Positions 20,545-43,696 of a stretch of 64,000 nucleotides of DNA are shown here, piece by piece. This stretch comes from Mesosutterella faecium (GTDB lineage: Bacteria; Pseudomonadota; Gammaproteobacteria; Burkholderiales; Burkholderiaceae_F). The notes under the pieces are model-generated. The model saw nothing but the letters and a program-made list of their open reading frames with translations, was not told the origin of the DNA and did not search any database. Numbering within the stretch: the first letter of the stretch is position 1; the number at the start of each line of letters is the position of its first letter. The stretch covers positions 124,001 to 188,000 of the forward strand of contig NZ_JAKZJU020000002.1 of NCBI RefSeq assembly GCF_022809315.2, in the 5' to 3' direction. A program made the translations under genes and the position numbers.

Positions 20545-20581
20545 TCAAAGACATATTTATATTCTGAGGATAGGTTTTCTG

Positions 20582-20689: not shown

Positions 20690-20726
20690 TCCTTAAAGCA
20701 GAAAACCAGATCCGCTACAAAGAGAA

Positions 20727-20757
20727 GAGCCGCAGACAAAACTGCGGCTCTTTTTTT
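20727..20757 (+). terminator. Intrinsic terminator between leader ORF and AbrB gene (candidate attenuator)
   Basis: GAGCCGCAG (20727-20735) pairs perfectly with CTGCGGCTC (20742-20750) around an ACAAAA loop, followed by seven T. Only 36 bases separate the T-run from the AbrB start codon, too few for a separate promoter, so AbrB transcription probably has to pass this terminator. Confidence 0.85.
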
Positions 20758-20793
20758 ATTCGCATTCGTTTATTCAGGCAGGGAGAATTCAAC

Positions 20794-21030: not shown

Positions 21031-21181
21031 GCCTTCTGCGCGCCTGAAAAAAGACGCGGCTTTAAGAAAAAAGAAGAGAAGCCCCCTTCCCTCTTTTTCA
21101 GGCATGGTCCGCTGAAAGCCCGGCACCCGCACCCCGGGGCCCTCCCTCCCCTCGAGGAAGGAGTTCCCCCAAAAGCGCAGG

Positions 21182-21211
21182 CGGCCCGCCACGAGGATTC
21201 GAGGCGGGCCG
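21182..21211 (-). terminator. Hairpin downstream of phoU
   Basis: CGGCCCGCC (21182-21190) and GGCGGGCCG (21203-21211) form a nine-pair stem. A weaker hairpin with a TTTTT tail on the minus strand lies between it and phoU (21224-21245). One or both probably end the pst transcript. Confidence 0.45.
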
Positions 21212-21290
21212 GAGGAATAAAAAGCGGCAGTGCCTTTTTTTTAAAAGAGCATTGCCAAAAAGGGCTGAGCTTGTATCTTGGCTCTCGGTC

Positions 21291-22010: not shown

Positions 22011-22037
22011 CTCTTCTTCTCCTTTTTCCGCGCCCGG

Positions 22038-22841
<804 letters not shown>

Positions 22842-22865
22842 AGTGGCTTGCTTTCCAAATAACCG

Positions 22866-23729
22866 TTAGTGTTTGCCGCGGCGGAACTCTCGGATGAGAA
22901 TGGCCGCAAGGCTCATGGCGAAGACGAGCACCACAAGAACCACGGAGGCGCCGTACTGCAGGGGCCTGGTCGCCTCGATGTCGGTGCCGGAGGTCGCCAT
23001 CACGTAGATGTGATAGGGCAGTGCCATCACCGGCTCGAAGGGCGAGACGCCCTCCTTCGGCGTGAAGAAGACCGCGCCCGTGTACATGATCGCGGCGGTT
23101 TCGCCCGCGGCGCGGGCGAGCGCGAGGATCGCGCCGGTCATGATGCCCGGCAACGCCGAGGGCAGCACGATCTTCATGATCGTTTCGCGGCGCGTGGCCC
23201 CGAGGGCGAGGCTCGCCTCACGCCAGTCGCCCGGAACCTGCTTCAAGGCGCTTTCCGTCGTGTTGATGATGATGGGCAGCGACAGCACTGCAAGCGTGAG
23301 GATCCCCGAAAGGAGGCTCACCCCGAACCCGCAGAAGACGGAGAAGAACGTTAGGCCGAACAGCCCGAAGACAATCGAGGGGACGCCTGCGAGGTTCGCG
23401 ATCGAAAGCCGCAGCAGCACCACCGCAGGCGTGTCGCGGCTGTACTCGTTCAGGTACACGGCGCTAGCCACCCCGAGGGGCAGCGCGAAGAAAAGCGCCC
23501 CCAGCGCGAGCAGCGCCGTGCCGACGATGCAGGGGAAGACCCCGCCCGCGGTCATCATGTCGCGCGGCGGCTGCGTGAGGAAATCCCAGCCGAGCACGGG
23601 CCAGGCATTCACGATGAGCACGCCCAGCACGCCGAAAAGCGCAAGGACGCTCGCCGCCGCCGCGAGTCTCATGGCCGCAAAGCCTGCGATGCCCGCGGCC
23701 TGCCGCAGCCCGAAGTTTTTGAGTTTCAT
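22866..23729 (-). CDS. pstA: Phosphate ABC transporter permease PstA
   Basis: The 287-residue protein has six membrane helices and the PstA loop WREASLALGATRRETIMKIVLPSALPGIMTGAILALARAAGETA. GGAGG in the end of pstC precedes the ATG, and the two genes overlap by four bases (ATGA), pointing to coupled translation and equal amounts of both permeases. Confidence 0.93.
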   Translation of the reverse strand: MKLKNFGLRQAAGIAGFAAMRLAAAASVLALFGVLGVLIVNAWPVLGWDFLTQPPRDMMTAGGVFPCIVGTALLALGALFFALPLGVASAVYLNEYSRDTPAVVLLRLSIANLAGVPSIVFGLFGLTFFSVFCGFGVSLLSGILTLAVLSLPIIINTTESALKQVPGDWREASLALGATRRETIMKIVLPSALPGIMTGAILALARAAGETAAIMYTGAVFFTPKEGVSPFEPVMALPYHIYVMATSGTDIEATRPLQYGASVVLVVLVFAMSLAAILIREFRRGKH

Positions 23730-24628
23730 GATCCCTCCTTCAGCGCAAAGCGCCGGGTGAGGTTCCAGGCGATCACGTTGAAGACGAACGTAATGAAGAA
23801 AAGGACCAGGCCTGCGGCATAAAGCGCGTGGTAGTGCTCGCCGCCCACGGCGGCCTCGGCCATTTCAGCAGCGATGCCGGCGGTGAGAGGACGCACGGGG
23901 TCAAAGAGACTTTCGGGAAGGATGCCGGCCCCGCCCGCGACCATGAGAACTACCATCGTTTCGCCGATCGCACGCGAAATCGCAAGCATCACGGCCGTGC
24001 CGATACCGCCCAGGGCCCAGCGCAGCTCCACGCGGCAGAGGGTCTCCCAGCGGGTGGCTCCGAGCCCGAGGCTTGCCTCGCGCATCTGGGCGGGCACGTT
24101 GTTAAGCGCGTCCTCGGAGATTGAGGCGATCGTCGGCACGCACATGAAGGCGAGCATCAGCCCCGCGTTGAAGAGGTTGAGCCCCGTGGTGAGGTTGAAC
24201 GTCTGCTGTAGCCAGGGCGCCACGACCACAAGGCCGAAAAAGCCGATCACCACCGAGGGCAGCGCCGCCATGAGCTCGATCACGGGCTTGAGGAAGCGGG
24301 TCACCGCCGGAGGAAAGGCGCAGTGCATGGCCGCGGCGGTGAGCACTCCGATCGGCACCGCGATCACGGTCGTCACGGCGGCGACCGAAAGAGATCCCAC
24401 GATCATGGCCCCGATTCCGAAAACCGGAGGATCATCAGTCGGGTACCACTCCGTGGAGAAGAAAAACTGATGCAGGGGGACGTCCCTCAGAATCGGAAAC
24501 GCCTGCGTGAAAAGAAACACGACAATGGCCGCGAGCGCGAGAACGCTCACGGCTGCAACGGCTGCGAGGGAATTTCTGAAAAGCCCCTCGTGCCTGTCGC
24601 CCGCGGGGGCGGCCGCAGAAGAAGTCAT
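23726..24628 (-). CDS. pstC: Phosphate ABC transporter permease PstC
   Basis: The 300-residue protein has six to seven membrane helices and the typical loop REASLGLGATRWETLCRVELRWALGGIGTAVMLAISRAIGETMVV. It pairs with PstA in the inner membrane. It starts 89 bp after pstS; a stem-loop in that gap may allow more PstS than permease to be made. Confidence 0.93.
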   Translation of the reverse strand: MTSSAAAPAGDRHEGLFRNSLAAVAAVSVLALAAIVVFLFTQAFPILRDVPLHQFFFSTEWYPTDDPPVFGIGAMIVGSLSVAAVTTVIAVPIGVLTAAAMHCAFPPAVTRFLKPVIELMAALPSVVIGFFGLVVVAPWLQQTFNLTTGLNLFNAGLMLAFMCVPTIASISEDALNNVPAQMREASLGLGATRWETLCRVELRWALGGIGTAVMLAISRAIGETMVVLMVAGGAGILPESLFDPVRPLTAGIAAEMAEAAVGGEHYHALYAAGLVLFFITFVFNVIAWNLTRRFALKEGS

Positions 24629-24650
24629 TCGATTGAGCCTTGCATTAAAG

Positions 24651-24688
24651 GCTCCCGCGAAAGGGAGGAGAGAAACCCCCGCGGGAGC
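24651..24688. terminator. Stem-loop between pstS and pstC
   Basis: GCTCCCGCG (24651-24659) pairs with CGCGGGAGC (24680-24688). On the minus strand only three T follow, so it may stabilise the pstS message or partly terminate it. On the plus strand ACTTTTTTC follows and would make a better terminator. Confidence 0.5.
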
Positions 24689-24717
24689 ACTTTTTTCAGT
24701 AGGAACAGCCGGACCGG

Positions 24718-25548
24718 TTATTTGCCAAGAGGAACGTAGCCCGCCTTGGCGACATACTGCTGGCCGCTCCTGCTCAGGGTGTAGTCGATCAGCTTCTTCG
24801 CGTCGCCCGCGGGAGCCTTGGCGGTGAAGAGGAAGAGGTCGCGGGCGATCGGCCAGGTCTTCTTGCGGGCGGCTTCAGCGGAGGGCTTGACGCCGTTCAC
24901 CGAGAGGCCCTTCACCTGCTTGCCGAGATAGCCCACGCCGATGTACCCGATTGCGTTGGGGTTGCCGGCCACAGCCTGGACAACGCCGCCGTTCGAGCTC
25001 TGCAGCAGCGCGCGCTGGGAGACGCGAGTCTTGCCCATCACGAGCTCCTGCCAGCATTCGAACGTGCCGGAGGAGGAGTCGCGGCCGACCACGACGATCG
25101 GGGCGTCAGAACCGCCCACTTCCTTCCAGTTCTTCACGTTGCCGGCGAAGATCCCGCGGATCTGATCCTTGGATAGGCCCGCCACCTTGTTCTTCGGGTT
25201 CACCACCGGAATGATGGCGTCATGAGCGATCGTGATCTTCACGGGCTTGATGCCGTGCGCTCCGAAGTCAGCCACTTCCTTTTCCTTCATGTCGCGGCTG
25301 GACATGGCGATGTCGGTCGTGCCGTCGCGCAGAGCCTTGATGCCGTTGCCGGACCCGGTTCCGGAGATCGTCACCGTGATGTCCCTGTGCTGCTTGTGGA
25401 AGGCCTCGGTCACCTGCTGCATGATCGGTAGCACCGTGGTGGAGCCGTTCAGGTTCAGGGTGCCGGCGAAGGCAGAGGAGGAGAACATCACGGAGGCGGC
25501 CAAAAGGGCAGCGACGGCAGCCTTGGAACGCAGGAACTTGAGAGTCAT
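24718..25548 (-). CDS. pstS: Periplasmic phosphate-binding protein PstS
   Basis: The 276-residue protein has a Sec signal (residues 1-28, ending SSAFA) and the phosphate-binding motifs of the PBP family: NGSTTVLPI, SGTGSGNGI, TDIAMSSRDM and GRDSSSGTFECW. It is of the shorter PstS type common in anaerobes and clostridia. As the first gene of pstSCAB-phoU it lies behind four PhoB-like boxes (25624-25667). It captures phosphate and hands it to PstCA. Confidence 0.93.
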   Translation of the reverse strand: MTLKFLRSKAAVAALLAASVMFSSSAFAGTLNLNGSTTVLPIMQQVTEAFHKQHRDITVTISGTGSGNGIKALRDGTTDIAMSSRDMKEKEVADFGAHGIKPVKITIAHDAIIPVVNPKNKVAGLSKDQIRGIFAGNVKNWKEVGGSDAPIVVVGRDSSSGTFECWQELVMGKTRVSQRALLQSSNGGVVQAVAGNPNAIGYIGVGYLGKQVKGLSVNGVKPSAEAARKKTWPIARDLFLFTAKAPAGDAKKLIDYTLSRSGQQYVAKAGYVPLGK

Positions 25549-25623
25549 CTTTTATTTTTCCATCAGTAGAAAAGAAATCAAGTGCGGGTGCTTTCCTCCC
25601 GCACAGGTTGAAAGTATGGAGAG

Positions 25624-25667
25624 GCGTTGTGTCAGCCCCGTGACGGTTTTGTGACGGATTGATGACA
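25624..25667 (-). promoter_or_regulatory. Four tandem PhoB-like boxes upstream of pstS
   Basis: On the plus strand GTGTCA, GTGACG, GTGACG and ATGACA end at 25634, 25645, 25656 and 25667, exactly 11 bases apart. Read on the minus strand these are TGTCAT, CGTCAC, CGTCAC and TGACAC. The layout equals that before the PiT gene at 280-323. The remaining bases up to 25921 hold a GGCCTGCCG/CGGCAGGCC inverted repeat and AT-rich text but no gene. Confidence 0.75.
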
Positions 25668-25921
25668 GAAAAATAAATTCACTCAGGCTTTTGATTTTTT
25701 TGTATTAGACGCAGGCCTGCCGTCAAACAGGCGGCAGGCCCTGAGGAAAAATCCGGCTGGCGGAAAAAGGGATTTCCCCCGTTTTTTCCATAACCAGCCC
25801 CTGCCGAGAGGTCCTGCGGCAGGCGCCTCTCAAACCCCCTGTGCCAGGTTGAACAACTTACATTATTTTAAATGTCAAAAAATATTAATATCATTTTTAT
25901 GAACTTGCTTTCTGCAATTGA

Positions 25922-26275
25922 AACGCGGCGGTCTTATGCGCGTTCTGGTACACAGCAGACTCCGGCAACCTCCTCGTGTCTGCGGGGTACTCAATCAGCG
26001 GGGTCAGCTCCAATATGCTTAACGCCGGCCTCATCTACCGCTTCGGCAGCGACTTCAGGCACGCCGTGGACTACAGGCAGGTCGCGCTTGACGCTAAGAA
26101 CCGCTCGAATGATCTCCAGGCACAGCTTTCTGCCTCCAGGACCTGCGAGGAAAACATGGCCAAAGACCTGCAGGCGGCCCGCGATCATTCCAATCAGCTG
26201 GAGTCCGAGCTGACTGCTGTCAAGGCGCAGCTTTCCAAGCTGGCTGCAAAGGTGGAGGCGCTTTCCGCCAAGTAA
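25922..26275 (+). pseudogene. 3' fragment of a YadA-like trimeric adhesin (anchor end plus coiled tail)
   Basis: Directly after an in-frame TGA (25919-25921) the frame reads AFWYTADSGNLLVSAGYS and NAGLIYRFGSDFRHAVDYRQ, which closely follows the membrane anchor of the big adhesin at 31960 (AFWYPTDSGNLLLSAGYA, NAGLTYRFGGNFRHAVDYRQ). A coiled coil of about 80 residues ends ESELTAVKAQLSKLAAKVEALSAK. Signal peptide, head and stalk are absent, so no adhesin can be made. It could be a leftover of a deleted gene or a donor for recombination. Confidence 0.8.
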
Positions 26276-26876
26276 GCCGCTTAAACGGAAAGAAGCCCTT
26301 GGCTCCCTCCGCCCGACAGGGAGCCGGGAAACGAGAGAAGGGGATTTTTCAATCGAAGAATCCCGGTGGGATCTCCGCCTCAAGGCATACGAGCCGGGGA
26401 TCCCTTTTGTTATGCCCCCTGCCACGGCCGGCGCCAGCTTTGTCTACAGGAAATCAGCCATCCGGGATGATTTGGCCAGCCCGATCCGACTGACTTGCTT
26501 CGCCTTGCCTAGCGGCTTTCCCCTTCCAAAGAACCTCTCTCTTTCACAGGCCGGTCCTTTCCGGACTCCTGGCGTCCCTGACGGAAAGGTGCGGGCAATG
26601 GCGGCGATTCACTTTTTATAATTTTTAATTAGATTTATAAAAACAGTGATTCTTAATTTTTTCAACATTAGAAATTCAGAAATACTGTGCTGAAATTTAG
26701 ATCCGCAGCCTAAAGCCTCCAATGGCTGTCTGAACTGCGCTGCGGCCTCCTTGCGCCTGCTATTCCCGGCAGCACCATGCGCCCTTTCAACCTCTTAGAA
26801 AATCCTCTTGCTGCTTTTTCGCGCGTTTAAACTTGAATCCCGGCGCGTTCCGCGCCTGACTTCGGAAAATCACGCC
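26276..26876 (+). other. Gene-free stretch between the adhesin fragment and the LysR gene
   Basis: A GGCTCCCT/AGGGAGCC hairpin lies near 26299-26323 and a strongly AT-rich block at 26620-26700 that may hold the LysR promoter. No convincing coding sequence or RNA was found. Confidence 0.5.
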
Positions 26877-27893
26877 ATGGCCGAGCCGCTTCCCAGCAGA
26901 AACATCAGTCTGAAAAAAAGCCTTTTCAACAAGGACTTTGAGATCTTCCTGAGCCTCTGCGAGACTCGCTCCTTTCGAAAGACGGCGCAGCTCGCGGAGC
27001 TGTCAGTCGCCTCGGTCTCGCGAATTTTGAGCGAGCTCGAGGCCTCGCTGGGGGTCCTTTTGTTCGACCGCTCGCGCCGCCCCGCCTCGCTCACGGCCGA
27101 AGGCCGCCGCCTGGAAAGCGAGCTGCGCCCCTGCATGCGGCAGTTTGAAAAAAGCGTTACGGAAATCCGGCTCATGAGCCGCATCAGGCCTTCCCTCAGG
27201 ATCGGCTTCATCGACAGCTTTTCCTACGACATCGCCCCGGCCTTCATCAGAAAAATGGCCCCGTCGCTGCAGAGGATCTCGTGCCTCACGGGAGGCGCGG
27301 ACCGCCTCTGCGAGCGGCTTGCCGCTCGGGAAGTGGACGTCATCCTTTCCATCAACCCCTGCTTTGAAGCCCCGGGGCTGCGCCGCTTCAAGCTGCTCAC
27401 CGAACCCTCGGTCATCATTTTCCCACGCAGCGCAGCCCCCGCAGCCTTCAGTCCGGGCAGCTGGCGGGAGCTCGCCTTCTGCGGTCTGCCCTTCATCCAC
27501 AACTACCGCTCGAGCGGCGGGGGCAGGCTTGAGGACGGGCATTTCCAGACCCACGACATCCCCGTCTGCGGCAACATCTACACCGACAGCATCGGGATGC
27601 GCATGAAGCTCGTGGCCCAGGGGCTGGGCTGGGCCATTATCCGACCGCTGTCTCTGCTGCAGCACCTGGAGCTCCTCGAGGAGTTGCGCGTCCTGCCCTC
27701 TCCTCCGCCGGGACTGTCAAGATCCATCTACGTCCTTGCGGAAGCGAGCGTCCCCTCCGAGCTCTTCACCCGGATCATCACGGAGCTGCACGGCATCATC
27801 CGGGACGATATCCTCGGGCGCATCGCGCCGCTGCTGCCGCAGGGGACTGCGGGCATCGAGCTCCGTCCTCTGCCCGAAGCCCTGAAGGACTAG
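26877..27893 (+). CDS. LysR-family transcriptional regulator
   Basis: With the start at 26877 (in-frame ATG close to the domain) the product has 338 residues. The N-terminal winged helix reads FEIFLSLCETRSFRKTAQLAELSVASVSRILSELEASLGVLLFDRSRR (about 20-70), and an effector-binding domain follows. It converges tail to tail on the amidohydrolase gene: the two stop codons share the palindrome CTAG. Its targets are unknown; the amidohydrolase and DcuC carrier next door are candidates. Confidence 0.8.
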   Translation: MAEPLPSRNISLKKSLFNKDFEIFLSLCETRSFRKTAQLAELSVASVSRILSELEASLGVLLFDRSRRPASLTAEGRRLESELRPCMRQFEKSVTEIRLMSRIRPSLRIGFIDSFSYDIAPAFIRKMAPSLQRISCLTGGADRLCERLAAREVDVILSINPCFEAPGLRRFKLLTEPSVIIFPRSAAPAAFSPGSWRELAFCGLPFIHNYRSSGGGRLEDGHFQTHDIPVCGNIYTDSIGMRMKLVAQGLGWAIIRPLSLLQHLELLEELRVLPSPPPGLSRSIYVLAEASVPSELFTRIITELHGIIRDDILGRIAPLLPQGTAGIELRPLPEALKD

Positions 27894-29110
27894 CCCTGGC
27901 AGGCCTGCCCGAAGGCAAACGGAATGGCCGCCATCACGGCTGCGGCATCTGAGAGCACCGCGTCGTTTACGAGAAAGGCGGGATCGTGCTGAGGCTGGCC
28001 AACGCCCTTTCCCTCGTCCTTCATGCCCATGAAGTAAAGACAGGACGGAACCCGGGCGGAATATTCACGAAAGTCCTCCGAGCCCGTGAGCATGTCGACG
28101 TCCTTCACACGCCCGCTTCCTAGAATCGCGCCTGCCGCGCTGCGCACCACCGAGACCATCGCCGGGTTATTCATCACGGCCGGCCCGTTGATGAGGAGGC
28201 TGTATTCGGTCCTGCAGCGATGGGCCTGCGCGGTGAGCGATGCAAGCTCCCCCAGCCGCTTGCCCATAAACCGCACTAGATCCTCGCGCGCTGCCCGGAT
28301 CGTGCCCGAGAGCGTCACTTCCTGCGGGATCACGTTGGTCGCGGTCCCCCCGTGGATGGTGCCCACCGTGATCAGTGCGGGTTCGATCGGACTCGTTTCC
28401 CGCGAGACGATCGTCTGCAGACCGCAGACGATCTGGGAGGCCGTCGTGACCGGATCGCACCCCAGGTGAGGGCTCGCGCCGTGAGTGCCCTTGCCGATCA
28501 CCTTCAGGCTGAAGCGCCCCGAAGCCATCATAGTCGCGCCCTCGCGGACAAAGACCTTCCCGGCCTCGAATATCCCCCAGACGTGCATGCCGAACATCGC
28601 GTCCACGCCTTCGAGCGCGCCGCTGCGCACGACGTAGCCCGCCCCAGAGAGCGGCTTTTCAAAAATCTTCGTGCGCGTCTCTTCCGCGGGCTGGAAAAAG
28701 ATTTTCACCCGCACCGGCAGATCTTTCTCGTATAGCTTCAGGATTCGGGCGGCAGCGAGCATGCAGGCGGCATGGGCGTCATGCCCGCAGGCGTGCATGA
28801 CCCCGGGGTTCTTCGACTGGTAGAGCAGCCCTGTCTGCTCGGCAATCGGCAGAGCGTCGATGTCGCAGCGCAGCCCCACGCAGCGGCCGCCCTGCCCCAC
28901 GTACGTGCAAAGCCCCGTTCCGACCGGGCCGAACCCCACCTGGATGTCCCTGTAGCCAAAGGACTCAAGCTCCCTGCGGATGAACTCCGTGGTGCCCGTC
29001 TCCTTGAAGGAAAGCTCGGGGTTCTCGTGCAGATGGTGCCTCCAGCCCACGATCGAGTCCTGCATTGCGCGGGCCTCGGCCTTGATTGCCTCATAAATAT
29101 CAGGATTCAT
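27890..29110 (-). CDS. M20-family amidohydrolase (hippurate/aminobenzoyl-glutamate hydrolase type)
   Basis: The 406-residue cytoplasmic enzyme has the metal ligands of the M20D group: HACGHDAH (about 107-114), PAEE, a later MHVWG histidine and the dimerisation part GTHGASPHLG. These enzymes remove N-acyl or N-aminoacyl groups from amino acids or short peptides. It is 90 bp downstream of a DcuC-type carrier on the same strand, so uptake of the acyl-amino acid and its hydrolysis may go together. The true substrate cannot be read from sequence. Confidence 0.85.
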   Translation of the reverse strand: MNPDIYEAIKAEARAMQDSIVGWRHHLHENPELSFKETGTTEFIRRELESFGYRDIQVGFGPVGTGLCTYVGQGGRCVGLRCDIDALPIAEQTGLLYQSKNPGVMHACGHDAHAACMLAAARILKLYEKDLPVRVKIFFQPAEETRTKIFEKPLSGAGYVVRSGALEGVDAMFGMHVWGIFEAGKVFVREGATMMASGRFSLKVIGKGTHGASPHLGCDPVTTASQIVCGLQTIVSRETSPIEPALITVGTIHGGTATNVIPQEVTLSGTIRAAREDLVRFMGKRLGELASLTAQAHRCRTEYSLLINGPAVMNNPAMVSVVRSAAGAILGSGRVKDVDMLTGSEDFREYSARVPSCLYFMGMKDEGKGVGQPQHDPAFLVNDAVLSDAAAVMAAIPFAFGQACQG

Positions 29111-29200
29111 ATTGCGCCTCTTTTATGTCCGCCCGGGCCGTCCCTTCCTCCCCCTCCCCCCAAAAAAATGAGAGAAAGAGGCGGTCGGGACCGGCCTGCT

Positions 29201-30571
29201 TCAGCCCAGAAGAAGATAGTTGCCGATCATCATCACGATCCAGCCCCCGAGCATCGGGATTGCCGTGCGGCGGATGATGGCGATCGGCGTGATGCCGGCC
29301 GCGGCAGCCACCACAATCGTGGCGCCCGCCACTGGCGAGATACCGCGGGCGAGCCCCGCCGTAAACTGCATGGAGGAGATGAGCTGGGTCACGTCCCCGC
29401 CCAGGCCCGCGGCCACATCGGTCGCGATGGACCCCAGACTCGTGAGCGCGCCCACGCCGCTGCCTGTGAGGAAGGCGACGATCGCGATCAGGCCCGAAAG
29501 GACACCGGCCATCCCGGTCATGCCGAAGCCACCGTAGTTCGCGCATTTGAGCAGCAGGTCGATCAGACCGCAGAGCTTGATGCCGGTCGCGAAGATCTGG
29601 GCCGCAATGATGAGGGACACAATCGTGGTGAAGAGCGACCCCATGCCCTTGATCATCGCCATCGCGTCCTCGCAGACCTTCATCAGGTCGCGGCGGCGGA
29701 TGAGCTCGACCACGACGCCGATGATCCAGGAAAGAAAGAGCGCGGTCACGGTGTTGAGCTGGATCGACTGGTAGCCGAACTTCGAGAACACGCAAAGGAG
29801 CGCGATCGGCAGGACCGGCAGAATCGCATAGCCCGAGGGGCCGACCGGCATCAGCTTTCCGCTGTCAAAGACGGAGTCCGTGTAGACGTCGTCATTCTTC
29901 CGGTCGTAGTAGCGCTGGACGAAGAAGTTGAGCACCGCGATCGTGATGATCATGGGGATCGCGACCGGCAGCTGGTACTGGACGAAATAGACGATCGGCT
30001 CGATGTTGGCGATTTTCGCCGCAAAAAGCGCCGTGCCCGTGCCGGGCCCCATTCCGATCGTGCCCGAGCAGAAGATAGCGGCCGCTGCACCCGCCCGGGA
30101 GACGCCGAGCTTGAGCAGGATCGGGTACATCGTGGTGAGCAGCAGCATCGCCAGCCCTCCGTGGCTCGGGACGACCGGGCACATCGCCGCGCCCAGCATG
30201 TAGCAGAGCGCGAGCACGAGATACGGGCTCTTGAGCGCCTTAAGCGGGGAAATGCAGACCTTCACCAGGGCGCCCGAAGCGCCTATGCGCTCCATGTACT
30301 TCGCGAAGCCCCCGGCCACCATGATGATCATACCGATGCCGGCCACCTGCTTCACGCTCGCGAGCCGGATCAGGTCGATGAGGTCGAACCAGACAAGCCC
30401 CGTGGACTTCGCGCCCTTAGGCAAAATGTGGTCGGCCCCGAACAGGATCGCAATGGCGATCATGATCAGGCCCGAGCCCAGAAGGACAATGACAGTGGGA
30501 TATCGCTTGATGACGAGCCACCCTGTGGCAATGGTCACAAGCACCGCTAGAAATGACGCCAGATATTCCAT
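29201..30571 (-). CDS. DcuC-family C4-dicarboxylate/anion carrier
   Basis: The 456-residue protein has 12 or so membrane helices and the DcuC landmarks GFAKYMERIGASGALV, GAAMCPVVPSHGGLAMLL and ARGISPVAGATIVVAAAAGITPIAIIRRTAIPM. DcuC proteins move succinate, fumarate and related acids across the inner membrane in anaerobes. It lies upstream of the amidohydrolase at 27890, probably in one operon, so an acylated amino acid or dipeptide-like anion is an alternative cargo. A second, different DcuC gene is at 62139. Confidence 0.82.
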   Translation of the reverse strand: MEYLASFLAVLVTIATGWLVIKRYPTVIVLLGSGLIMIAIAILFGADHILPKGAKSTGLVWFDLIDLIRLASVKQVAGIGMIIMVAGGFAKYMERIGASGALVKVCISPLKALKSPYLVLALCYMLGAAMCPVVPSHGGLAMLLLTTMYPILLKLGVSRAGAAAAIFCSGTIGMGPGTGTALFAAKIANIEPIVYFVQYQLPVAIPMIITIAVLNFFVQRYYDRKNDDVYTDSVFDSGKLMPVGPSGYAILPVLPIALLCVFSKFGYQSIQLNTVTALFLSWIIGVVVELIRRRDLMKVCEDAMAMIKGMGSLFTTIVSLIIAAQIFATGIKLCGLIDLLLKCANYGGFGMTGMAGVLSGLIAIVAFLTGSGVGALTSLGSIATDVAAGLGGDVTQLISSMQFTAGLARGISPVAGATIVVAAAAGITPIAIIRRTAIPMLGGWIVMMIGNYLLLG

Positions 30572-31155
30572 GGTGAGGTCTCCTCATGAAAACCGCCTGT
30601 TGTTCTGGAATTGCGCGGATTCAGAAACAACTATCTGACTTCACGTGAAATTTTTAAATCATGTTTCGCGCCGCGAAAACTGACGTTTTGTTTTCTGCCG
30701 GTTCTGCGGCTGGCAAAATCGTTTCTAAATAACCCCAGGAAAAAGAGGGCCGGCGCCGGCAGAATCATCCTTTCATTGTTTTTAACAGTTATAAACAATC
30801 GTTCTATGATTTTTTCAATGTAAAAATAAAAACAGCCGCTCCGGCGGCCCGGACGCCGTGCGCTCGGGGAAAAAGCGGAAGCGCTCCTGCCTTGAGGGCG
30901 GAAGAACAAAGAAGGACTTCCCCGTCTTTCCCCAAAGGGGCAGGAGCCTGGCAGGCGGTTTCTTTTTGCCCGCCGCCCCGAAAGCCCTGGCAGGGCCCGC
31001 TTTTTTCCCCGGCGCTGAGACTTCAGGGAAGGCCCCCCGGCCCTGCCCCACCCTTTCCTTCCTGCCCTCTTTTATCTATCCCCTGCGCTCAAGGCCCCGG
31101 CGCCCCTCTTTCGGAGGAGAGGGAAAACCTGAGTGGCTTTGTCGGGTATTATTCG
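30572..31155. other. Gene-free stretch before ahpC
   Basis: It holds a perfect 12-bp palindrome GCCGGCGCCGGC (30749-30760), a short hairpin GCCCTGGCAGGGC followed by T6 (30984-31004), and the upstream part of the ahpC promoter. Open frames exist but lack ribosome sites and natural protein character. Confidence 0.5.
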
Positions 31156-31174
31156 TAAAATAAAAATCATTCTC
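31156..31174 (+). promoter_or_regulatory. Fur-like box overlapping the ahpC promoter
   Basis: The bases from 31156 match the 19-bp Fur consensus at 14 positions; the reverse strand reads GAGAATGATTTTTATTT. TTGTCG at 31139 and TAAAAA at 31161 could be the -35 and -10, so the box covers the -10. Fur or the related PerR are candidate binders; no OxyR-type motif was obvious. Confidence 0.5.
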
Positions 31175-31245
31175 GATACGAACCAAAGGGCCTCGATCGC
31201 AGAAACGCTTTTTTCGGCCCTTTTATTACGCCAAGGAAAACATTC

Positions 31246-31809
31246 ATGTCTCTCATCAACAAGGAAGTTGCCGACTTCACCGCCTCCGCCTACCAGGCCG
31301 ACAAGTTCATCACTGTGAGCAAGAAGGACATTCTCGGCAAGTGGTCCGTCTTCATGTTCTATCCCGCGGACTTCACTTTCGTGTGCCCGACCGAGCTCTC
31401 CGACCTGAACGACCAGTACGAGGCCTTCAAGAAGATCGGCTGCGAAGTCTTCTCCGTGTCGACCGACTCCCAGTTCGTGCACAAGGCCTGGCACGACGCC
31501 TCGGAGACGATCCGCGCGCTGCGCTTCCCGATGCTCTCGGACAGCAACCATGAGCTCTCCCGCGACTTCGGCGTGCTCATTGAAAAGGCGGGCCAGGCCG
31601 AGCGCGGCACCTTCGTCGTGGATCCCGACGGCCGCATCAAGGCCTACGAAGTGGTGGACGGCAACATCGGCCGCAACGCCGAGGAGCTGCTGCGCCAGGT
31701 CGAAGCCCTGCAGTATGTGCGCGAGCACGGCGACCTCGCCTGCCCGGCGCGCTGGAAGCCCGGCAAGAAGACCCTGAAGCCCGGCATTGATCTCGTCGGC
31801 AAGATCTGA
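31246..31809 (+). CDS. ahpC: Alkyl hydroperoxide reductase peroxiredoxin AhpC
   Basis: The 187-residue protein is a full-length typical 2-Cys peroxiredoxin: peroxidatic C47 in DFTFVCPTE and resolving C166 in GDLACPARW. It reduces hydrogen peroxide, organic peroxides and peroxynitrite in the cytoplasm. No ahpF reductase gene is near. The last 80 codons are repeated at 37002-37244, on the far side of the big adhesin gene, so the two ahpC ends form a direct repeat around it. A Fur-like box overlaps the promoter. Confidence 0.95.
   Translation: MSLINKEVADFTASAYQADKFITVSKKDILGKWSVFMFYPADFTFVCPTELSDLNDQYEAFKKIGCEVFSVSTDSQFVHKAWHDASETIRALRFPMLSDSNHELSRDFGVLIEKAGQAERGTFVVDPDGRIKAYEVVDGNIGRNAEELLRQVEALQYVREHGDLACPARWKPGKKTLKPGIDLVGKI
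31567..31809 (+). repeat. Direct repeat copy A (3' end of ahpC)
   Basis: These 243 bp, from codon F108 to the stop of ahpC, recur at 37002-37244 in the same direction with only two differences that I can see. The match begins and ends sharply. Confidence 0.92.
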
Positions 31810-31871
31810 TTTCCTTTTCCCGGGGGCTAACCCCGGGAAACATGTCGGAAATACTTCACCGCCGCAAAAAC

Positions 31872-31908
31872 AAATTCCCGACTAACAGTTCAAGTTAACC
31901 GGGAATTT
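31872..31908. terminator. Terminator between ahpC and the adhesin gene
   Basis: AAATTCCCG (31872-31880) pairs with CGGGAATTT (31900-31908), followed by AGTTTTAAG. The two genes converge here. A second inverted repeat TTTCCCGGGG/CCCCGGGAAA at 31816-31840 is closer to ahpC. Confidence 0.65.
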
Positions 31909-31959
31909 AGTTTTAAGAAGCTCCTTTAAAAGTCGTTGGGAGCTACGAAGTTAAATCAC

Positions 31960-34900
31960 TTAATGAAGCAGAGATTCGACCTTCGCCGCCAACGCATTGA
32001 ACTTTTCCTTCATCTTCCCGAGTTCAGACTCAAGAGTGCTGGCTCGTGCCTCTGCTTTGTCACGGCTCTTTATGAGTTCATCCACCTTTTCCGCAAGGCT
32101 GTTCTCGCGTGTTATAGAGGCTGACAGCCGTCCCTCCAGGTCATTTGAACGGCTGACGGCCTGTTGCGCCAGCTGGCGGTAATCGACAGCGTGCCTGAAG
32201 TTTCCGCCAAACCTGTATGTCAGGCCAGCGTTGATCATGTTGGAATCAGAGCCGCTGTTCGCATAGCCTGCTGAAAGCAGAAGATTGCCAGAATCAGTCG
32301 GATACCAGAAAGCTCCGATGGAAGCCGCCGTCCTGTCTTTATAGTGTCCAACGCCTGCGGCTAGCATGAACCGGTGATCCGGATCGAAGTCGACAGGATG
32401 GAGTGCCGCCAGGGCAGCTGCGTCGGCTCCTGCCTGGTTAATGCGCCGGCTCATATGATTGTTCAGCCGCTGGATCTGGTAGTCGACAAAGCCAACATTG
32501 GCGGCGCTCGTAGGATCGCTCGGGTTGGTGGCAACCCCGGTGAGGACACGTGTCTGGCCCATGCCGCCCGTGATGTCAATCGTGGAGGCGGTTCCTCCCG
32601 CATCGATCGTGATCGTATCGCCATCTGTCTGAACAAGCGAAGACATTTTGTTCACATTCTGGATGGCTGTGTAGACAGTGCCGCCGGAAACAAGCCCGGT
32701 ATTGCCATTTTCGACTGAGCCCGTTCCGAGTTTTTCCTGCCAGGAAGCCACATCGTCTGCGCTTAGGTTGCTTGCATTTCGATCAGCTTTCTTGTCCATG
32801 TCTTCTTTCATGACGGACTTGATCGCGTTATCGGAGACATTGACGGTGTAAGTATCGGCAGTGCCTTCCGAACCTTTGGTGACCGTCGTGTTCTGCCCGG
32901 CCAGTACCTTTATCGACTCCTTTGCGAGGTTTCTGATGACGCCCTTCCCGCTTTCGCTGACATTTCCTAAATCCGTCTTCGCATAGTTCTGATCCAAATT
33001 GCCAACGGTCGCATTGATTGAGCTGATCGCAGAATCAAGGAGGTTGATATTCTGGCCGGCTGTATTGCCCGAACTGACAATGGTGCCGTCAGCGGAACGA
33101 GTTTCCGCATAAACAGTCTTTCCTGTCACAAGGCCGCTGCTGTTTGAATCCACTGTCCCAGTTCCGAGAGCACGTTGCCAGTTCGCAGTATTTATGACCG
33201 ATGTGTCTGCATTGACGATACTGCTTGCCGCCTTGTCAAGGGCTGTGATGTTTTGCCCCGTGGTCTGTTCCGGCTTTACATATGCGCCGGCCTGAGACGG
33301 GCGGACTTCGTCGTAAATTCCGCCGCTGGTGACAAGAGCCTGGCTGTTTTTGCTGACTTGATCGCTGATGTCTGCGCCAGGCGAATTAGTTTTCACGGCA
33401 AGATTAAAACTCTTTACTCCCTGGTTATTCGTGGTTTCATTGACTGTCACCGAGCCATCAGAGCTGGAAATATTGATGAGTTTGGTGATGTTTTCCTTGC
33501 CTGCCGCAGAAATATTGTCCAAATCGCTTGAGGCCCGTTTTCCGATCTGAGCATCCAAGACAGACAAGTTCTGAGCAACAGAATTGTTCGGCTGGATGTA
33601 ATTGCCTGCAGCGGTCGGGCGGACTTCCCTGTAGAGGATTCCGCCGGTCACTAGGCCGGCATTGCCGGAAGCGACGGCTCCATTGCCAAGTTTGTTTTGC
33701 CAGGCCTGAATATCGGCCTCCGAGAGGTTGTCAGCGGCCAGGTTCGCCTTTGCATCCAGATCTCCCTGAACCGCTCCCTTGATGCTGTCGCTGCTCACAT
33801 TGACTGCGTAGGTCTTCGCGTCCCCCTCTGCGCCTTCCGTGACCGTCGTGTTGGTGCCGGCCACCACCTTCACCGACTCCTTCGCGAGGCCGCGGACCGC
33901 GGCCTTGCCGGCGTCCGTGACGTTCGAAAGGTCGGTCTTCGAATAAGTGTTCCCCAGCCCGCTGATCGTCGAGTTGATCGTCCCGATGTCTGTGGCGTTC
34001 TGGGCGGCCTTGTCGGCATTGGCCTTCACATGCGTGTCAAGCAAGGCCAGGTTCTCGCCCGCAGTCTTCGCCGACTTCACATAATTCCCATCAGCTTCCG
34101 GACGTACTTCGGTATAAACCGAACCGCCCGTCACGAGGCCTATGTTGCCAGAGGCGACTGAACCGTTGCCCAGTTTGCCCTGCCAGGCCTGCACATGGGC
34201 CTCCGACAGGTTGTCAGCCGCGAGGTTAGCCTTAGCATCCAGGTCTGCCTTAACCGCACCCTTGATGCTGTCATTGCTCACATTGACTGCGTAGGTCTTC
34301 GCGTCCCCCTCTGCGCCTTCCGTGACCGTCGTGTTGGTGCCGGCCACCACCTTCACCGACTCCTTCGCGAGGCCGCGGACCGCGGCCTTGCCGGCGTCCG
34401 TGACGTTCGAAAGGTCGGTCTTCGAATAAGTGTTCCCCAGCCCGCTGATCGTCGAGTTGATCGTCCCGATGTCTGTGGCGTTCTGGGCGGCCTTGTCGGC
34501 ATTGGCCTTCACATGCGTGTCAAGCAAGGCCAGGTTCTCGCCCGCAGTCTTCGCCGACTTCACATAATTCCCATCAGCTTCCGGACGTACTTCGGTATAA
34601 ACCGAACCGCCCGTCACGAGGCCTGTGTTGCCAGAGGCGACTGAACCGTTGCCCAGTTTGCCCTGCCAGGCCTGAATATCGGCCTCCGAGAGGTTGTCAG
34701 CGGCCAGGTTCGCCTTCGCATCCAGATCTCCCTGAACCGCTCCCTTGATGCTGTCGCTGCTCACATTGACTGCGTAGGTCTTCGCGTCCCCCTCTGCGCC
34801 TTCCGTGACCGTCGTGTTGGTGCCGGCCACCACCTTCACCGACTCCTTCGCGAGGCCGCGGACCGCGGCCTTGCCGGCGTCCGTGACGTTCGAAAGGTCG

Positions 34901-36728
34901 GTTTTCGAATAAGTGTTCCCCAGCCCGGCGATCGTCGCGTTCACCGTCCCGATGTCCGCGGCGTTCTGGGCCGCCTTGTCGGCATTGGCCTTCACATGCG
35001 TGTCAAGGGCGGCGAGGTTCTCGCCTGTGGTCTGCGCCGACTTCACATAAGCCCCGTCGGAAGCCGGGCGAACTTCTTTATAAACAGCGCCTCCTGAAAC
35101 AGCATTCGAGTCATTTTCTGCCACTGTGTCGCTGACAGTGGCCCCGGGGATATTAACTTTAAGGTCGTAGCTCTTTGCACCGCTTGTCGAATTGACGTTT
35201 TCGGTGACAGAAACCGTGCCATCGCTGCTGGAAACAGATTCAACAATCTGATTCATGGCGGCGGCGTCCTGTGCGTTCACGCCGTTTGCGATCCTCACGA
35301 TTCGGTTGTTTTTCGCTGCTGCTTCAGCCTGGGTGTCGCTCGAACCAAAGGACACTGTGCGGGTCGTGTCCGCAGCGCTGCCGGTGCCGATCGCCACGGC
35401 GTCTCTCGCGGTAACCGACGCGGAGGAGCCGATGGCTACGCTGTTTGAAGCAGCCTCAGAAGTGGACGCGCCATTGCCCCCAACAACAACGGAGTAGGCT
35501 CCGGCCGCTGTTCCATTCTGACCGCCAACGACGGTTGAATAGTTTCCGGAAGCGGTGTTTTGATAGCCGCCGTCTAAAGTGGAATATTCACCAGAACCGG
35601 TGTTGCCGAAGCCGCCGTTAACCGCTGAATAGTCTCCTGATGCCTTGTTCAGGTAACCGCCGTTAATTGCGGAGTATTTACCTGAAGTTGCGTTGTTATT
35701 GCCCCCAACAATGGTGGAGTATTCACTGCGGACTTGATTGCCGCTACCGCCAATGGCAGTTGCATAATCTGCATAAATGCTATTGGCATTGCCGCCGATT
35801 ATCGTTGCAAATTGGCTAGAGGCGGTGTGTGACGAACCACCGACTATGACTGAATAGTCTCCTGAAGCGTTATTCGATGAACCACCATCAATAGTTGCAT
35901 ATTTCCCAACGATCAGATTCGACGCGCCCCCGTTGATAGTCCCATAGGGATCTAGAACCGTATTAGAGGATCCTCCGTTGATCGTGCCGAACTCGGGCTG
36001 CTCAGAGCTGCTTGTCGACAGATTCCAAATATGATTATTGCTGCCGCCATTAATCGTTGCGTAATTTGCCCTGGCCTGACCGGCCTGTCCTCCATTTATC
36101 GTCGCAAAATCAGCAGACGCAACGGCATATGTCACAGAAGTATCAGACCATGCTCCCCCGCCACCGTTAATCGTTGAGAATTTGCCTGACGCGGCGTTGT
36201 ACTTTCCCCCGTTGACAGTCGCATATTCCCCGTCGGTCTGCACAATATAGCCACCGTTTATGGTCCCATATTTCCCATTGACTCGCGATATGAAGCTGCC
36301 GTTTATAGTTCCATAATCGGCATTTGCCTCAATTGCTGTGTACCGACCGCCATTTATCGTGCTGTGAACTGCGCTTGCCCTAACTCCGGCGCCGCCGTTA
36401 ATGGTCGAGTAGTCCCCTTGCGCAAAATTCTTCTCGGAATAAGTTCCCGTGCCAGGGCTTTCGAATGTCCCTGTAGTATCGCTACCGCCGTTGATGGTTG
36501 AATATTTTCCAGAGGCGGTTCCTTCCTGCCCCCCGTTAATTGTCGAATAATCGCCCGTGGCCGTGTTCCCCTGGCCGCCATTTACTGTTGAAAAGTCACC
36601 GGCCAGTGCCTGAGGCGCGCAAAAGGAAGAAATCAATAAGCTGCAGAAAACGGCAACTGGAGTCTTTTTAAAGCGAGCGGAATTTACCCCCCCCCAAAAA
36701 AAATACACCTGTAATAATTTGATTTCAT
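31960..36728 (-). CDS. Giant trimeric autotransporter adhesin, phase-variable, currently out of frame
   Basis: From V (just after the G-run) to the stop, 1575 codons are open: signal-peptide core PVAVFCSLLISSFCAPQALA, a head of about 25 TINGG-type YadA repeats, a long stalk with three near-identical 161-residue repeats, a YadA membrane anchor ending NAGLTYRF and then an unusual 82-residue coiled coil. Trimeric adhesins of this class stick to host cells or matrix. The best start is ATG at 36728, with AGGA six bases ahead. From there the frame runs 14 codons, through T8 and G9, into TAA. With ten G (or seven) it would enter the long frame and give about 1589 residues. The gene therefore looks switched off by a slipped G tract. 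An alternative TTG start far upstream is in frame but has no ribosome site. Confidence 0.85.
33640..35090 (-). repeat. Three 483-bp tandem repeats in the adhesin stalk
   Basis: The same text (for example GATGCTGTC...GCTCACATTGAC) recurs at 33781, 34264 and 34747, exactly 483 bp (161 codons) apart. Each unit encodes KTDLSNVTDAGKAAVRGLAKE, then a VAGTNTTVTEGAEGDAKTY stretch, then a WQGKLGNGSVASGN-like part. The identity is highest between about 33700 and 35060 and fades at both ends. Confidence 0.9.
36687..36703 (-). repeat. Homopolymer tract T8-G9 (coding strand) near the adhesin start
   Basis: On the plus strand nine C (36687-36695) are followed by eight A (36696-36703). On the coding strand this is T8 then G9, located 25 bases inside the gene when read from the ATG at 36728. 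A change of one G shifts the frame of the entire adhesin. Confidence 0.95.
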
Positions 36729-36812
36729 TTAATTTCCTCAGACAATTTAAGTGGAATTCTTTGGCTTTGTTTTCTTTATAAACGTAAAGACTCGTTAACA
36801 AATACCTTAAAT

Positions 36813-36841
36813 ATTTAACTCATGTATAAAAAATGTGTCAA
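36813..36841 (-). promoter_or_regulatory. Candidate promoter of the adhesin gene
   Basis: On the minus strand a perfect TTGACA (36836-36841) is followed after 17 bases by TTAAAT (36813-36818). The transcript would start near 36806, about 78 bases before the ATG at 36728. Confidence 0.55.
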
Positions 36842-37001
36842 TAGGGCTTGAGTTCCCAAGCTCCTCTTTAACAAATCACCGCGTTGAATAAGTTAAATTA
36901 AGAAATTTTATGTATATAAGTGATAATTCACTGATTTATTTAAATATCATGATCATTTTGGTAGCGCAGTGGACAGTCATATCGAAGGAGCACAGGGATG
37001 A

Positions 37002-37244
37002 TTCGGCGTGCTCATTGAAAAGGCGGGCCAGGCCGAGCGCGGCACCTTCGTCGTGGATCCCGACGGCCGCATCAAGGCCTACGAGGTGGTCGACGGCAAC
37101 ATCGGCCGCAACGCCGAGGAGCTGCTGCGCCAGGTCGAAGCCCTGCAGTATGTGCGCGAGCACGGCGACCTCGCCTGCCCGGCGCGCTGGAAGCCCGGCA
37201 AGAAGACCCTGAAGCCCGGCATTGATCTCGTCGGCAAGATCTGA
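37002..37244 (+). pseudogene. ahpC 3' fragment, direct repeat copy B
   Basis: The 80 codons FGVLIEKAGQ to VGKI plus the stop equal the end of ahpC at 31567-31809, with two silent changes (GAA to GAG, GTG to GTC). The peroxidatic cysteine part is missing, so it cannot act as a peroxiredoxin. Upstream text shows no ahpC similarity. Recombination with copy A would remove the adhesin gene and leave one intact ahpC. Confidence 0.92.
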
Positions 37245-37249
37245 CCGCC

Positions 37250-37280
37250 CTTTTCCCGGGAGCCCGCCTCCCGGGAAAAG
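37250..37280. terminator. Hairpin after the ahpC fragment
   Basis: CTTTTCCCGGGAG (37250-37262) and CTCCCGGGAAAAG (37268-37280) form a perfect 13-pair stem. A shorter hairpin of similar type lies at the same place after the full ahpC, which suggests both descend from the original ahpC terminator. Confidence 0.6.
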
Positions 37281-37420
37281 CGGCCGGAAATGCCAGAACG
37301 ATGCGATTTGCGGGCGGCGGATTAACGATCCCCTGAAGGGTTCTTATTCTGCCGCCCGCCTGCCGTCTCACGCCCGGCGCTGAGGCCGTCAGACTGCCCG
37401 CAGGAAACCGTGCGCCGCTC

Positions 37421-38422
37421 TCACTTATAGTAAGTTTTGTACCACTGGGCGAATTTCCCCAGCCCTTCTTCAATGGTCGTTTCCGGCTTAAAGTCAAAGT
37501 CGCGCTGCAGCTCGCTCACATCGGCATAGGTCTGGTACACATCGCCGGGCTGCATGGGCAGATATTCCTTTTTGGCCTTTTTCCCCAGGGCCTGCTCCAG
37601 CACCTCGATGAAATGCATGAGCTTTTCCGGCTTATGGTTTCCGATGTTATAGACTTTGTAGGCGTCTCCCAGTTCATTTTTTCTGGGCGGATTGCACAGC
37701 ATGTGCTCCATGCCGGTCACGATGTCGTCCACGTAGGTAAAGTCCCGGTACATGTCCCCGTGGTTGTAAATCTGGATCGCCTCTCCCCGGCGGATTTTAT
37801 TGGCAAACTTGAAATAGGCCATGTCCGGGCGGCCAAAAGGCCCGTAAACCGTAAAGAAGCGCAGTCCCGTTGCCGGAATCCCGTAGAGATGGCTGTAGGC
37901 ATAAGCCATCAGCTCGTCAGACTTCTTGGTCGCCGCATAGAGGCTGATGGGATGATCCACATTATCGGCCGTTGAAAACGGCGTTTTCTGCTGATTGCCA
38001 TACACGGACGAGCTCGATGCGAAGAGCAGATGCGCGACTTGATGACGGCGGCAGGCCTCCAGGATATTGAAAAAGCCCACAATGTTGGAATCAATATAAG
38101 AACGGGGATGGTCGATGCTGTAGCGCACCCCGGCCTGGGCCGCCAGATTCACAACGATATCCGGATGAAAGGACTCAAAGACCCCCGCCACGGCCTTTTC
38201 ATCGGCCAAATCCCCTTTGACAAAGGTAAATCCCGGAAAACGGGCAAGGATGTCCAGGCGGCTTTTCTTTAAAGAAACCTCATAGTAATCATTGAGGTTG
38301 TCAAACCCAAGGACAGAGGCTCCGAGCGAGAGCAGCCGCCGGGCCAGATGAAAGCCTATAAAACCGGCCGCCCCGGTGATCAATACTTTGCTTGTTTTGT
38401 CAAACGCTTTGAAATCTGCCAT
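37421..38422 (-). CDS. UDP-glucuronate 4-epimerase-like NAD-dependent sugar epimerase
   Basis: The 333-residue protein is a short-chain (extended) dehydrogenase: GAAGFIGFHLARRLL near 16-30 binds NAD, and S-S-S-S-VYG then YAATKKSDE give the catalytic Ser and YxxxK. The parts DYYEVSLKKSRLDIL and FGRPDMAYFKF are typical of UDP-glucuronate 4-epimerases (capsule/LPS precursor UDP-galacturonate). The ATG at 38422 is preferred over a GTG four codons earlier. The GC content is visibly lower than in neighbouring housekeeping genes, and together with the GT8 gene upstream it may form an acquired surface-polysaccharide pair. Confidence 0.82.
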   Translation of the reverse strand: MADFKAFDKTSKVLITGAAGFIGFHLARRLLSLGASVLGFDNLNDYYEVSLKKSRLDILARFPGFTFVKGDLADEKAVAGVFESFHPDIVVNLAAQAGVRYSIDHPRSYIDSNIVGFFNILEACRRHQVAHLLFASSSSVYGNQQKTPFSTADNVDHPISLYAATKKSDELMAYAYSHLYGIPATGLRFFTVYGPFGRPDMAYFKFANKIRRGEAIQIYNHGDMYRDFTYVDDIVTGMEHMLCNPPRKNELGDAYKVYNIGNHKPEKLMHFIEVLEQALGKKAKKEYLPMQPGDVYQTYADVSELQRDFDFKPETTIEEGLGKFAQWYKTYYK

Positions 38423-38596
38423 AGCAGTCGGCACCCTGTCTTCTCTGTTTTAGCCGCGGGGAAAAACAGCCCGCGCATAGGCTTTCTAATTGGCTTCGCC
38501 TGATTCTTCAGCCTGGCTGATTAGAAATAATCGCCGAAGCACGGCCCTTTAGATTTTACAGCGATCCGTAAATCCCTATTGCGGCAGCAGAATCGT

Positions 38597-39607
38597 TTAA
38601 AGATGCAGTTTATAGCGCATCCGCAGCCACGAATACCAAAATATCCCCTTAAAATATCCCGCCAGATTTCCATGCTTTTTCTGATATCGTCCCCACTGTT
38701 GGAAATCATGATAATTTTCAGGTTTTTTAATCGGCAGAATATTCGTAACAGTGGGCCAGGGCGATAAAGCATTATATTTGCGCCATTGGGCATCGAAGGG
38801 CGTCAGGACCATGTTCCACGGCTTTCTTCTTCCGGCCCAGTGAATAAACACTCCCTGATCAGTATCATAATCATCTCCGCCGTCCGTTATATTATAGGCA
38901 TGCGGCAGAAAATAAAGATTTCCGTCAAAAACCAAATTCAGTATATCCTGGCTTTGCCCTAAAAAACGCTCTTTCGGTTCGCATTGGAAAGAAAAGGCTT
39001 TTTCCGTAATATGGTCTTTCTCCCACTGCTTACAGTCCACTAGCATAATGCCATCGTTGAAATATCTTCCATTCTTTAGCTTCAAATATTCAGATCTGTA
39101 TTTGACGGAATCAGGACGATCAGCGGCCGCGGCTATGGCATAGCCTTTCATATCCAGGTGCATCAGAGGCTTTAATGAAGAAATGCACATGGTATCGGAG
39201 TCCGCATAAATATACCTGTCTGCATATTTTCCCAATACCTTCGGCATATAAAGTCTGACGTAGGTTACACGTGAGAAACGTGAAACCTTAATATGGAAAT
39301 CCTTAAACGGCTCCATATTCACACGATATAAATAGCAGCAGCAGTGAAATTTCTGGGCTGTTTTCCTAATGTTTTCCTCACTGCCATCGCTGTACCCGTC
39401 TGTAAAAATGTGAAATGAAAGCGACGCACCCTTATTGTTTTCTATGACAGAAACCATTGAGGCGCCCATAAACGGAATATACGCATCGTTAACGTTATAA
39501 GAAACGTGAATTTGCTCCCGGGCATCGTCGGCTGGCAGATAATTAAATATTTTTTCTGACGCAATAAAATGAGATACATCAAAAAACGACGATTCAAACT
39601 GTTTCAC
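38597..39607 (-). CDS. Glycosyltransferase family 8 (LPS-type hexosyltransferase)
   Basis: The 336-residue protein has the GT8 fold motifs: HVSYNVNDAYIPFMGASMVSVIENN at the front, the metal-binding YADSDT (DxD) in the middle, YFNDGIMLVD, and a late HWAGRRKPW. GT8 members such as WaaJ/WaaI add galactose or glucose to the LPS core from UDP-sugars. It has the lowest GC of any gene in the window, a sign of transfer. It lies 174 bp upstream of the epimerase on the same strand. Confidence 0.82.
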   Translation of the reverse strand: MKQFESSFFDVSHFIASEKIFNYLPADDAREQIHVSYNVNDAYIPFMGASMVSVIENNKGASLSFHIFTDGYSDGSEENIRKTAQKFHCCCYLYRVNMEPFKDFHIKVSRFSRVTYVRLYMPKVLGKYADRYIYADSDTMCISSLKPLMHLDMKGYAIAAAADRPDSVKYRSEYLKLKNGRYFNDGIMLVDCKQWEKDHITEKAFSFQCEPKERFLGQSQDILNLVFDGNLYFLPHAYNITDGGDDYDTDQGVFIHWAGRRKPWNMVLTPFDAQWRKYNALSPWPTVTNILPIKKPENYHDFQQWGRYQKKHGNLAGYFKGIFWYSWLRMRYKLHL

Positions 39608-39924
39608 GATCCTGTTCCTCCGAAGCCGCAGAGATTATTCACAAGCATAAATTAATCAATCAGGCGCATGATCAACGATCCAGGCAGCAAATAGGGTAAT
39701 TACCGGATTTCAATGAGTCAAGCATTGGTAATTAAAGGCATTTAAGAAATAAGGGCGCCCTTTTGTTTTCCAATGAAGGTTTCATGGCGGATGGCCGCTG
39801 AGTAATGCTCCGCCACAGGGGCTGACCCTCTCATTAATACAGCGTGAAAAGCCTGTACAGAAATGCGGCTCTCAGAGGACATCCTTCTGTCGTCCGGCAC
39901 ACGGCAGACGGTCCGCCCGGGAGT
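39608..39924. other. Gene-free stretch upstream of the GT8 gene
   Basis: AT-rich near 39640-39760 and likely to hold the GT8 promoter. No convincing coding sequence, repeat or RNA was found. Confidence 0.5.
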
Positions 39925-43194: not shown

Positions 43195-43696
43195 TTCATT
43201 CTTTCCGTTTAAGAAAACCCACCCGCCTCCGGTGCTGCTTGAAAAAAGGAGGAAGGAGACGAAAAGGCCAGAACCCAACCGGGAACTCAGCCTTTTTCCC
43301 CTTCGGGGCGAACGAAAAGAATGTTCTTCGAAAAAAGAAAAAGCGCGAGAGTAACCGGCAGCGCTCCGCCCGCGCGAACGACCGTCCCGCGGGCGACAGT
43401 CCGCAGGATCTTCTCCTGCGGCCCAGATCCGAAAAACTCTGAAGCAGCTTCTTCGGTCTTCGGCGGTTCCCCCTTTGGCAGCTTCCGGCTCTTCAGCCCT
43501 TTGTGTGGAAGCCGCGACTCATGAGTCCCGCGCCTCTGCCTTGTAACGAAATATTTTAGAAACTAATGCTTCCCGCGGCAATGAGGACTGTGCCTTAGTC
43601 TTTTAGGCCGCCGGGGCGGCCCCTTCACCCGCCGAAGTCTTAACTCCCTCTGGGTAACGGGGCCTTCAAGACCGGAGCCCGGGGCCTGGGGGGGGG
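43195..43696. other. Gene-free stretch between nhaC and ygfZ
   Basis: It contains a perfect 12-bp palindrome GACTCATGAGTC (43516-43527) about 320 bp upstream of nhaC. No gene, RNA or long repeat was found. Confidence 0.5.

Follow-up and report, generated by a model that had tools for sequence, protein, structure and literature searches.

A putative slipped-strand switch in front of a trimeric autotransporter adhesin gene of Mesosutterella faecium

In Moraxella, the trimeric autotransporter Hag undergoes translational phase variation via a G tract close to the start of the open reading frame, as stated in the available part of the report (PMC1931440). Among five strains of Moraxella catarrhalis, the tract of this protein (Hag/MID) holds 6 to 10 G according to the available excerpt of a second report (PMC7302503). 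For Campylobacter, the inactive CapC genes could not be accounted for by the length of their tracts, as far as the available text describes it (PMC7168839). Here we report a comparable arrangement in a 64,000-nucleotide stretch of Mesosutterella faecium (contig NZ_JAKZJU020000002.1, positions 124,001 to 188,000; hereafter the window), the minus strand of which carries a giant adhesin gene with eight T and nine G (T8-G9) between an ATG and a signal-peptide-like segment. The best explanation is very likely a slipped-strand phase-variation switch that would turn this adhesin, of secretion type Vc, on and off.

At the start of the gene, a candidate ribosome-binding site AGGA (36735..36738, minus strand, as for all features of this gene) is separated by six bases from an ATG (36728-36726), which is followed by the T8 run (36696..36703) and the G9 run proposed to slip (36687..36695). 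A TAA (36686-36684) directly after G9 ends the ATG frame at 14 codons plus stop (36684..36728). The adhesin is read in another, long open frame at 31960..36801, stop included and with a TTG as its upstream limit, which counts 1613 codons from TTG 36801 and 1575 from the codon spanning the tract end. The T8-G9 word occurs only once in the whole genome. The original prediction had named the AGGA, the six-base gap, ATG 36728 and T8-G9, all borne out by the sequence coordinates; its early stop at nine G came out the same when recomputed, and its 1575-codon trimeric adhesin frame was confirmed by the open frame and the membrane anchor described below. It had also placed a perfect promoter upstream. 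The TTGACA hexamer is indeed present (36836..36841), with a TTAAAT 17 bases downstream of it, but a promoter consensus scan accepted none on the minus strand, and that remark is therefore weak.

We propose that T8-G9, which separates the ATG and its candidate ribosome-binding site from the signal-peptide-like segment, gates the translation of the adhesin. In living cells, slipped-strand mispairing during replication would alter the tract length. One of the three registers would bring the ATG into frame with the signal peptide and passenger, allowing the adhesin to be produced; in the remaining two, a ribosome starting at the ATG would soon meet a stop, and no adhesin would result. As assembled, the gene stands in a non-joined register and would thus be off, provided that translation does start at the ATG and that the tract has been assembled at its correct length. 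The window adhesin would then be one of several such contingency loci in this genome.

Behind the tract, the long frame begins with a signal-peptide-like segment (36601..36686) of basic residues, a hydrophobic stretch and ALA, recognized by its sequence features. Profile search of the C-terminal piece placed a YadA-like membrane anchor (PF03895) at 32209..32385 with 38.7 bits against a cut-off of 22.7, and a paralog from this genome has an anchor region that is 49% identical to the piece over 150 residues. The head repeat PF05658 reached 19.1 bits, under its cut-off of 25. A family scan of the whole protein did not list PF03895 and gave one weak unrelated match below its cut-off, and no NCBIfam family was found for the whole protein. 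A portion of the passenger matches UspA1 structures by sequence in the structure database, and a solved cell-surface protein is another sequence relative with known structure. Judged by these matches, the product is a trimeric autotransporter adhesin of type Vc, for which adhesion and trimerization are predicted. Its stalk holds a repeat array (33641..35050) with 2.9 copies of a 483-bp unit at 93% matches, which might give rise to variation in length, and the internal repeats show ratios of nonsynonymous to synonymous substitution rates (dN/dS) of 0.19 to 0.34. A coiled-coil-like extension beyond the anchor (31963..32208) has counterparts in paralogs of the genus and in 9gh4, a cell-surface protein of solved structure.

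Two sister type V genes of the same genome resemble this arrangement. Locus L062 (9395-11677, minus strand) encodes a second trimeric adhesin with PF03895 and PF05662, in the order AGGA, ATG, short leader, C10 and signal peptide. Its ATG frame runs for 14 codons to a stop directly after the tract, and its long frame, like that of its ortholog in the related genome G004, contains no ATG, GTG or TTG between the last stop and the tract. The tract of the ortholog is C9 instead of C10 and stands in the other non-joined register. Over the 748 codons after the tract, the two genes differ by a dS of 0.405 and a dN of 0.054, a ratio of 0.133. This adhesin gene reads as off in two assemblies and is yet under purifying selection, which fits phase variation and not decay. 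The original prediction of a slipping tract as a switch thus gains support from the shared layout in other type V genes, the length difference between the two species and the selection on this sister gene.

The second sister gene, L072, encodes a classical autotransporter (PF03797) with C11 inside its signal peptide; its ATG frame covers the signal-peptide start and ends after 48 codons, and the mature part lies in another frame. An adjoining intact, tract-free paralog (75% identical) reads a similar signal peptide and the same mature sequence in one frame, and L072 is therefore one gene split over two frames. The dN/dS of this pair is 0.34, and that of an in-frame yardstick pair 0.23. Other adhesins of the genome, such as that at L064, have no tract near the start and carry an ordinary extended signal peptide (PF13018). 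A phosphoethanolamine-transferase-like gene (L063:6301-7959), the product of which scores below the NCBIfam cut-offs and above the Pfam cut-off for PF00884, has C12 near its possible start. At the matching place in genome G002 there is C7, preceded by 107 bases with 1 difference, and both length and register differ. L063 was not counted among the switch genes because a start after the tract is possible.

To describe the layout in other genomes, we used a pattern of AGGA, 4-9 bases, ATG, 15-45 bases and nine C, with the reversed pattern as control. This pattern occurred in 11 of 67 family genomes, against 2 of 67 for the control. Eight of the 11 C-tract loci (L126, L131 and L132 left out) and all eight G-tract loci of the family were analysed. 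In seven of these 16, a frame of at least 499 codons, followed to the stretch edge, carries a strongly hydrophobic segment near its beginning: those of G061, G035, G072, G004, G023 and the sister adhesin L062, all with C tracts, and the window gene with its G tract. An autotransporter or YadA domain was found in six of the seven; the G023 frame, cut by the contig end, has none. As a module, ATG, leader, tract and signal peptide recur in four more family genes, with differing registers. Adding L072 to the seven gives eight genes, of which two, two and four stand in registers 0, 1 and 2 relative to the ATG. A fixed programmed frameshift does not fit this spread over the registers, and random slippage does.

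By hand counts over the order, the C pattern was present in 26 of 399 genomes, 24 of them among the 386 outside the family, and the control in 13 of 399. Hand counting gave 29 distinct loci outside the family, three of them unfetched; 24 of the 26 fetched were analysed (L192 and L206 left out), and none showed a frame of at least 499 codons of this kind. At L197, a locus of this set, the frame counts 377 codons, begins with a hydrophobic segment and stands out of register; by eye it looks like a flavin adenine dinucleotide-binding enzyme. Two further arrangements were noted in the family. At L147:2374-3410, in the relative G035, three similar short genes form a tandem row; ahead of every one stand a ribosome site, an ATG and a small open reading frame containing G9 or G10. 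At L117:2455-2464, in G004, a G10 by eye precedes a porin-like start by about 120-130 bases and is possibly a promoter-type switch.

The G/C runs of the M. faecium genome are bimodal in length: 30 of length 7, one of length 8 and ten of at least 9 (length 9, five runs; length 10, two; lengths 11, 12 and 21, one apiece). Pooled over five genus genomes, the numbers are 131, 17 and 26, and one of the five, G001, has no run of at least 8. Under a chance model in which the number of runs declines geometrically, by a factor of 0.25 to 0.4 for each added base, the probability that 10 of the 11 own runs of at least 8 reach 9 or more is 8e-6 to 7e-4. Chance predicts a steady fall and not a rise at 9 and above, and the long runs of this genome therefore exceed chance. 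The longest of them, a G21 at L062:15181-15201, is apparently intergenic. Of the ten long runs, three sit 31 to 72 bases downstream of the ATGs of type V secretion genes, of which the genome has about 13 (seven rows, one a fragment, plus seven), and one lies at the possible start of the phosphoethanolamine-transferase-like gene. Having three of ten runs within 90 bases of a type V start has a chance near 1e-8 in a test picked post hoc; measured against all genes (2300 assumed), the same placement has a chance of 0.04 for three runs and 0.006 for four. Long tracts by themselves are no proof of a switch. In the window adhesin, a tract beyond chance length is located between the start and the gene body.

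Several observations weigh against a switch at this gene. Some of the ten long runs stand at places implausible for a switch: five look intergenic, and another, a G10, is in frame within an Obg gene. The nine-G form of the pattern, found in 6 of 67 family genomes against 4 of 67 for its control, is not clearly enriched. No ortholog of the window adhesin was found in the other four genus genomes, G004 included. When its residues 1-420 were compared with known proteins, no copy but its own stood among the 120 matches listed out of 568, and the next best reached 41% identity. With no ortholog to compare, no tract-length variation is seen in the gene itself. Furthermore, MutS, which is expected to lower slippage, was found in all five genus genomes, and switching may therefore be slow; its loss as the reason for the long tracts was rejected on the same finding, MutL not having been searched for. 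Wider searches were also made. Scanning species genomes with the window adhesin gave three loci, in Acidaminococcus and Selenomonadaceae, at 37-39%. Exact flanking words matched nothing in viral contigs, nor was there a match in plasmid and phage records.

Four other explanations of the start region were weighed. A miscounted homopolymer, with the gene really in register, is unlikely. Homopolymers are a known weak spot of long-read assemblies, but the G10 of the Obg gene is in frame in this very assembly, and the out-of-register state is shared by three type V genes of this genome and one from a different assembly; even if the count were wrong, the locus would remain a candidate switch. Slightly less likely is translation from GTG 36708 or TTG 36801, by which the adhesin would be on at nine G. 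Both codons do precede the tract in the long frame, but by eye neither has a good, well-placed purine-rich ribosome site, whereas the ATG has AGGA at six bases, and the L062 adhesin and its G004 ortholog have no such start before the tract. With either start, the coding sequence would still include the tract; changes of tract length would therefore still switch the gene, and only the label of on and off would change.

It is quite improbable that the adhesin is a pseudogene killed by one frameshift. The ATG frame is truncated at the assembled length, and lineage-specific decay of autotransporter genes is reported for Campylobacter in the available text of PMC7168839. However, the lesion lies at a long tract with the remaining 1575 codons open, and the low dN/dS given above belongs to a sister adhesin that neither of two species has in register. 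Least likely of all is programmed slippage, in which a shift of frame at the tract, by RNA polymerase or by the ribosome, would yield a constant fraction of protein from unchanged DNA. A T8-G9 run is plausible as a slippery site, but such a mechanism needs one register, whereas the L062 adhesin and its G004 ortholog differ and two family genes are in register.

The adhesin gene may form an island. Comparison with G004 showed 98.2% identity over window positions 15297-31840 and 96.1% over 37401-39610, the adhesin between them being absent there. In the window, the adhesin (31841-37001) has an intact peroxiredoxin-like gene (31246-31809) on one side and, on the other, a truncated duplicate of the end of this gene. 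The two gene ends form a direct repeat, of which the left copy (31567..31840, plus strand) covers the 3' part of the intact gene and the right copy (37002..37278, plus strand; 277 bp) is 95.7% identical. These repeats look like the expected footprint of an insertion by recombination at the end of the peroxiredoxin gene, and they could also delete the adhesin; alternatively, they may be an assembly artefact. Elsewhere in the window, 25919-26263 is a C-terminal remnant of a similar trimeric adhesin with an internal stop, and a similar piece is found in G004 (C23:163033-163374). The C-terminal part of a frame at 18155-20356 matches the classical autotransporter L072 (G000:C2:142164-143006). On the minus strand, a lysine riboswitch (RF00168) lies at 43351-43546, and a C9 run (43688-43696) stands directly after a stop codon, before the riboswitch.

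Taken to the level of the family, these data suggest, with about even chances of being right, a distributed set of phase-variable type V genes in at least four genera, built on one module (ATG, short leader, poly-G/C, signal peptide) placed before unrelated trimeric and classical autotransporters. To this set, the window adhesin would add the 483-bp array and a 5.2-kb gain or loss between the peroxiredoxin repeats. If so, bacteria of this lineage can display or conceal giant adhesins and autotransporters at random, which to our knowledge is a tactic known mainly from mucosal pathogens. Such genes also receive wrong starts in routine annotation; the L062 adhesin, for example, stands in the protein database as a 733-residue protein starting inside its signal peptide.

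The device is probably a random on/off switch of a type already known, in a lineage for which no description was found. The original prediction knew of none either, and in the open-access literature on Sutterella, Sutterellaceae, Burkholderiales and gut commensals we found no account of such a switch, the Sutterella papers being judged by title and the start of the abstract. Among the described systems, the fimX promoter, tcfA and bapC of Bordetella likewise have homopolymeric tracts with allelic polymorphism, seen for three genes within single cultures; these are other genes, and the abstract names no trimeric adhesins (PMC1891110). Campylobacter CapD shares a poly-G tract within the coding sequence, or has none, according to the available text; CapC and CapD differ in that they are treated there as a single autotransporter group sharing a conserved C-terminal beta-barrel, and the paper does not show them to be trimeric (PMC7168839). 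Moraxella UspA1 is a sequence relative of the window passenger, and a G tract controls its expression, but that tract lies upstream of the open reading frame and alters transcription, as the available part of PMC7302503 describes. Compared with Hag/MID, the lineage is unrelated, the G run follows T8 and precedes the signal peptide, and length variation is known here for a sister gene between species and not within a population. In its proposed mode of action, the window device would work like Moraxella Hag.
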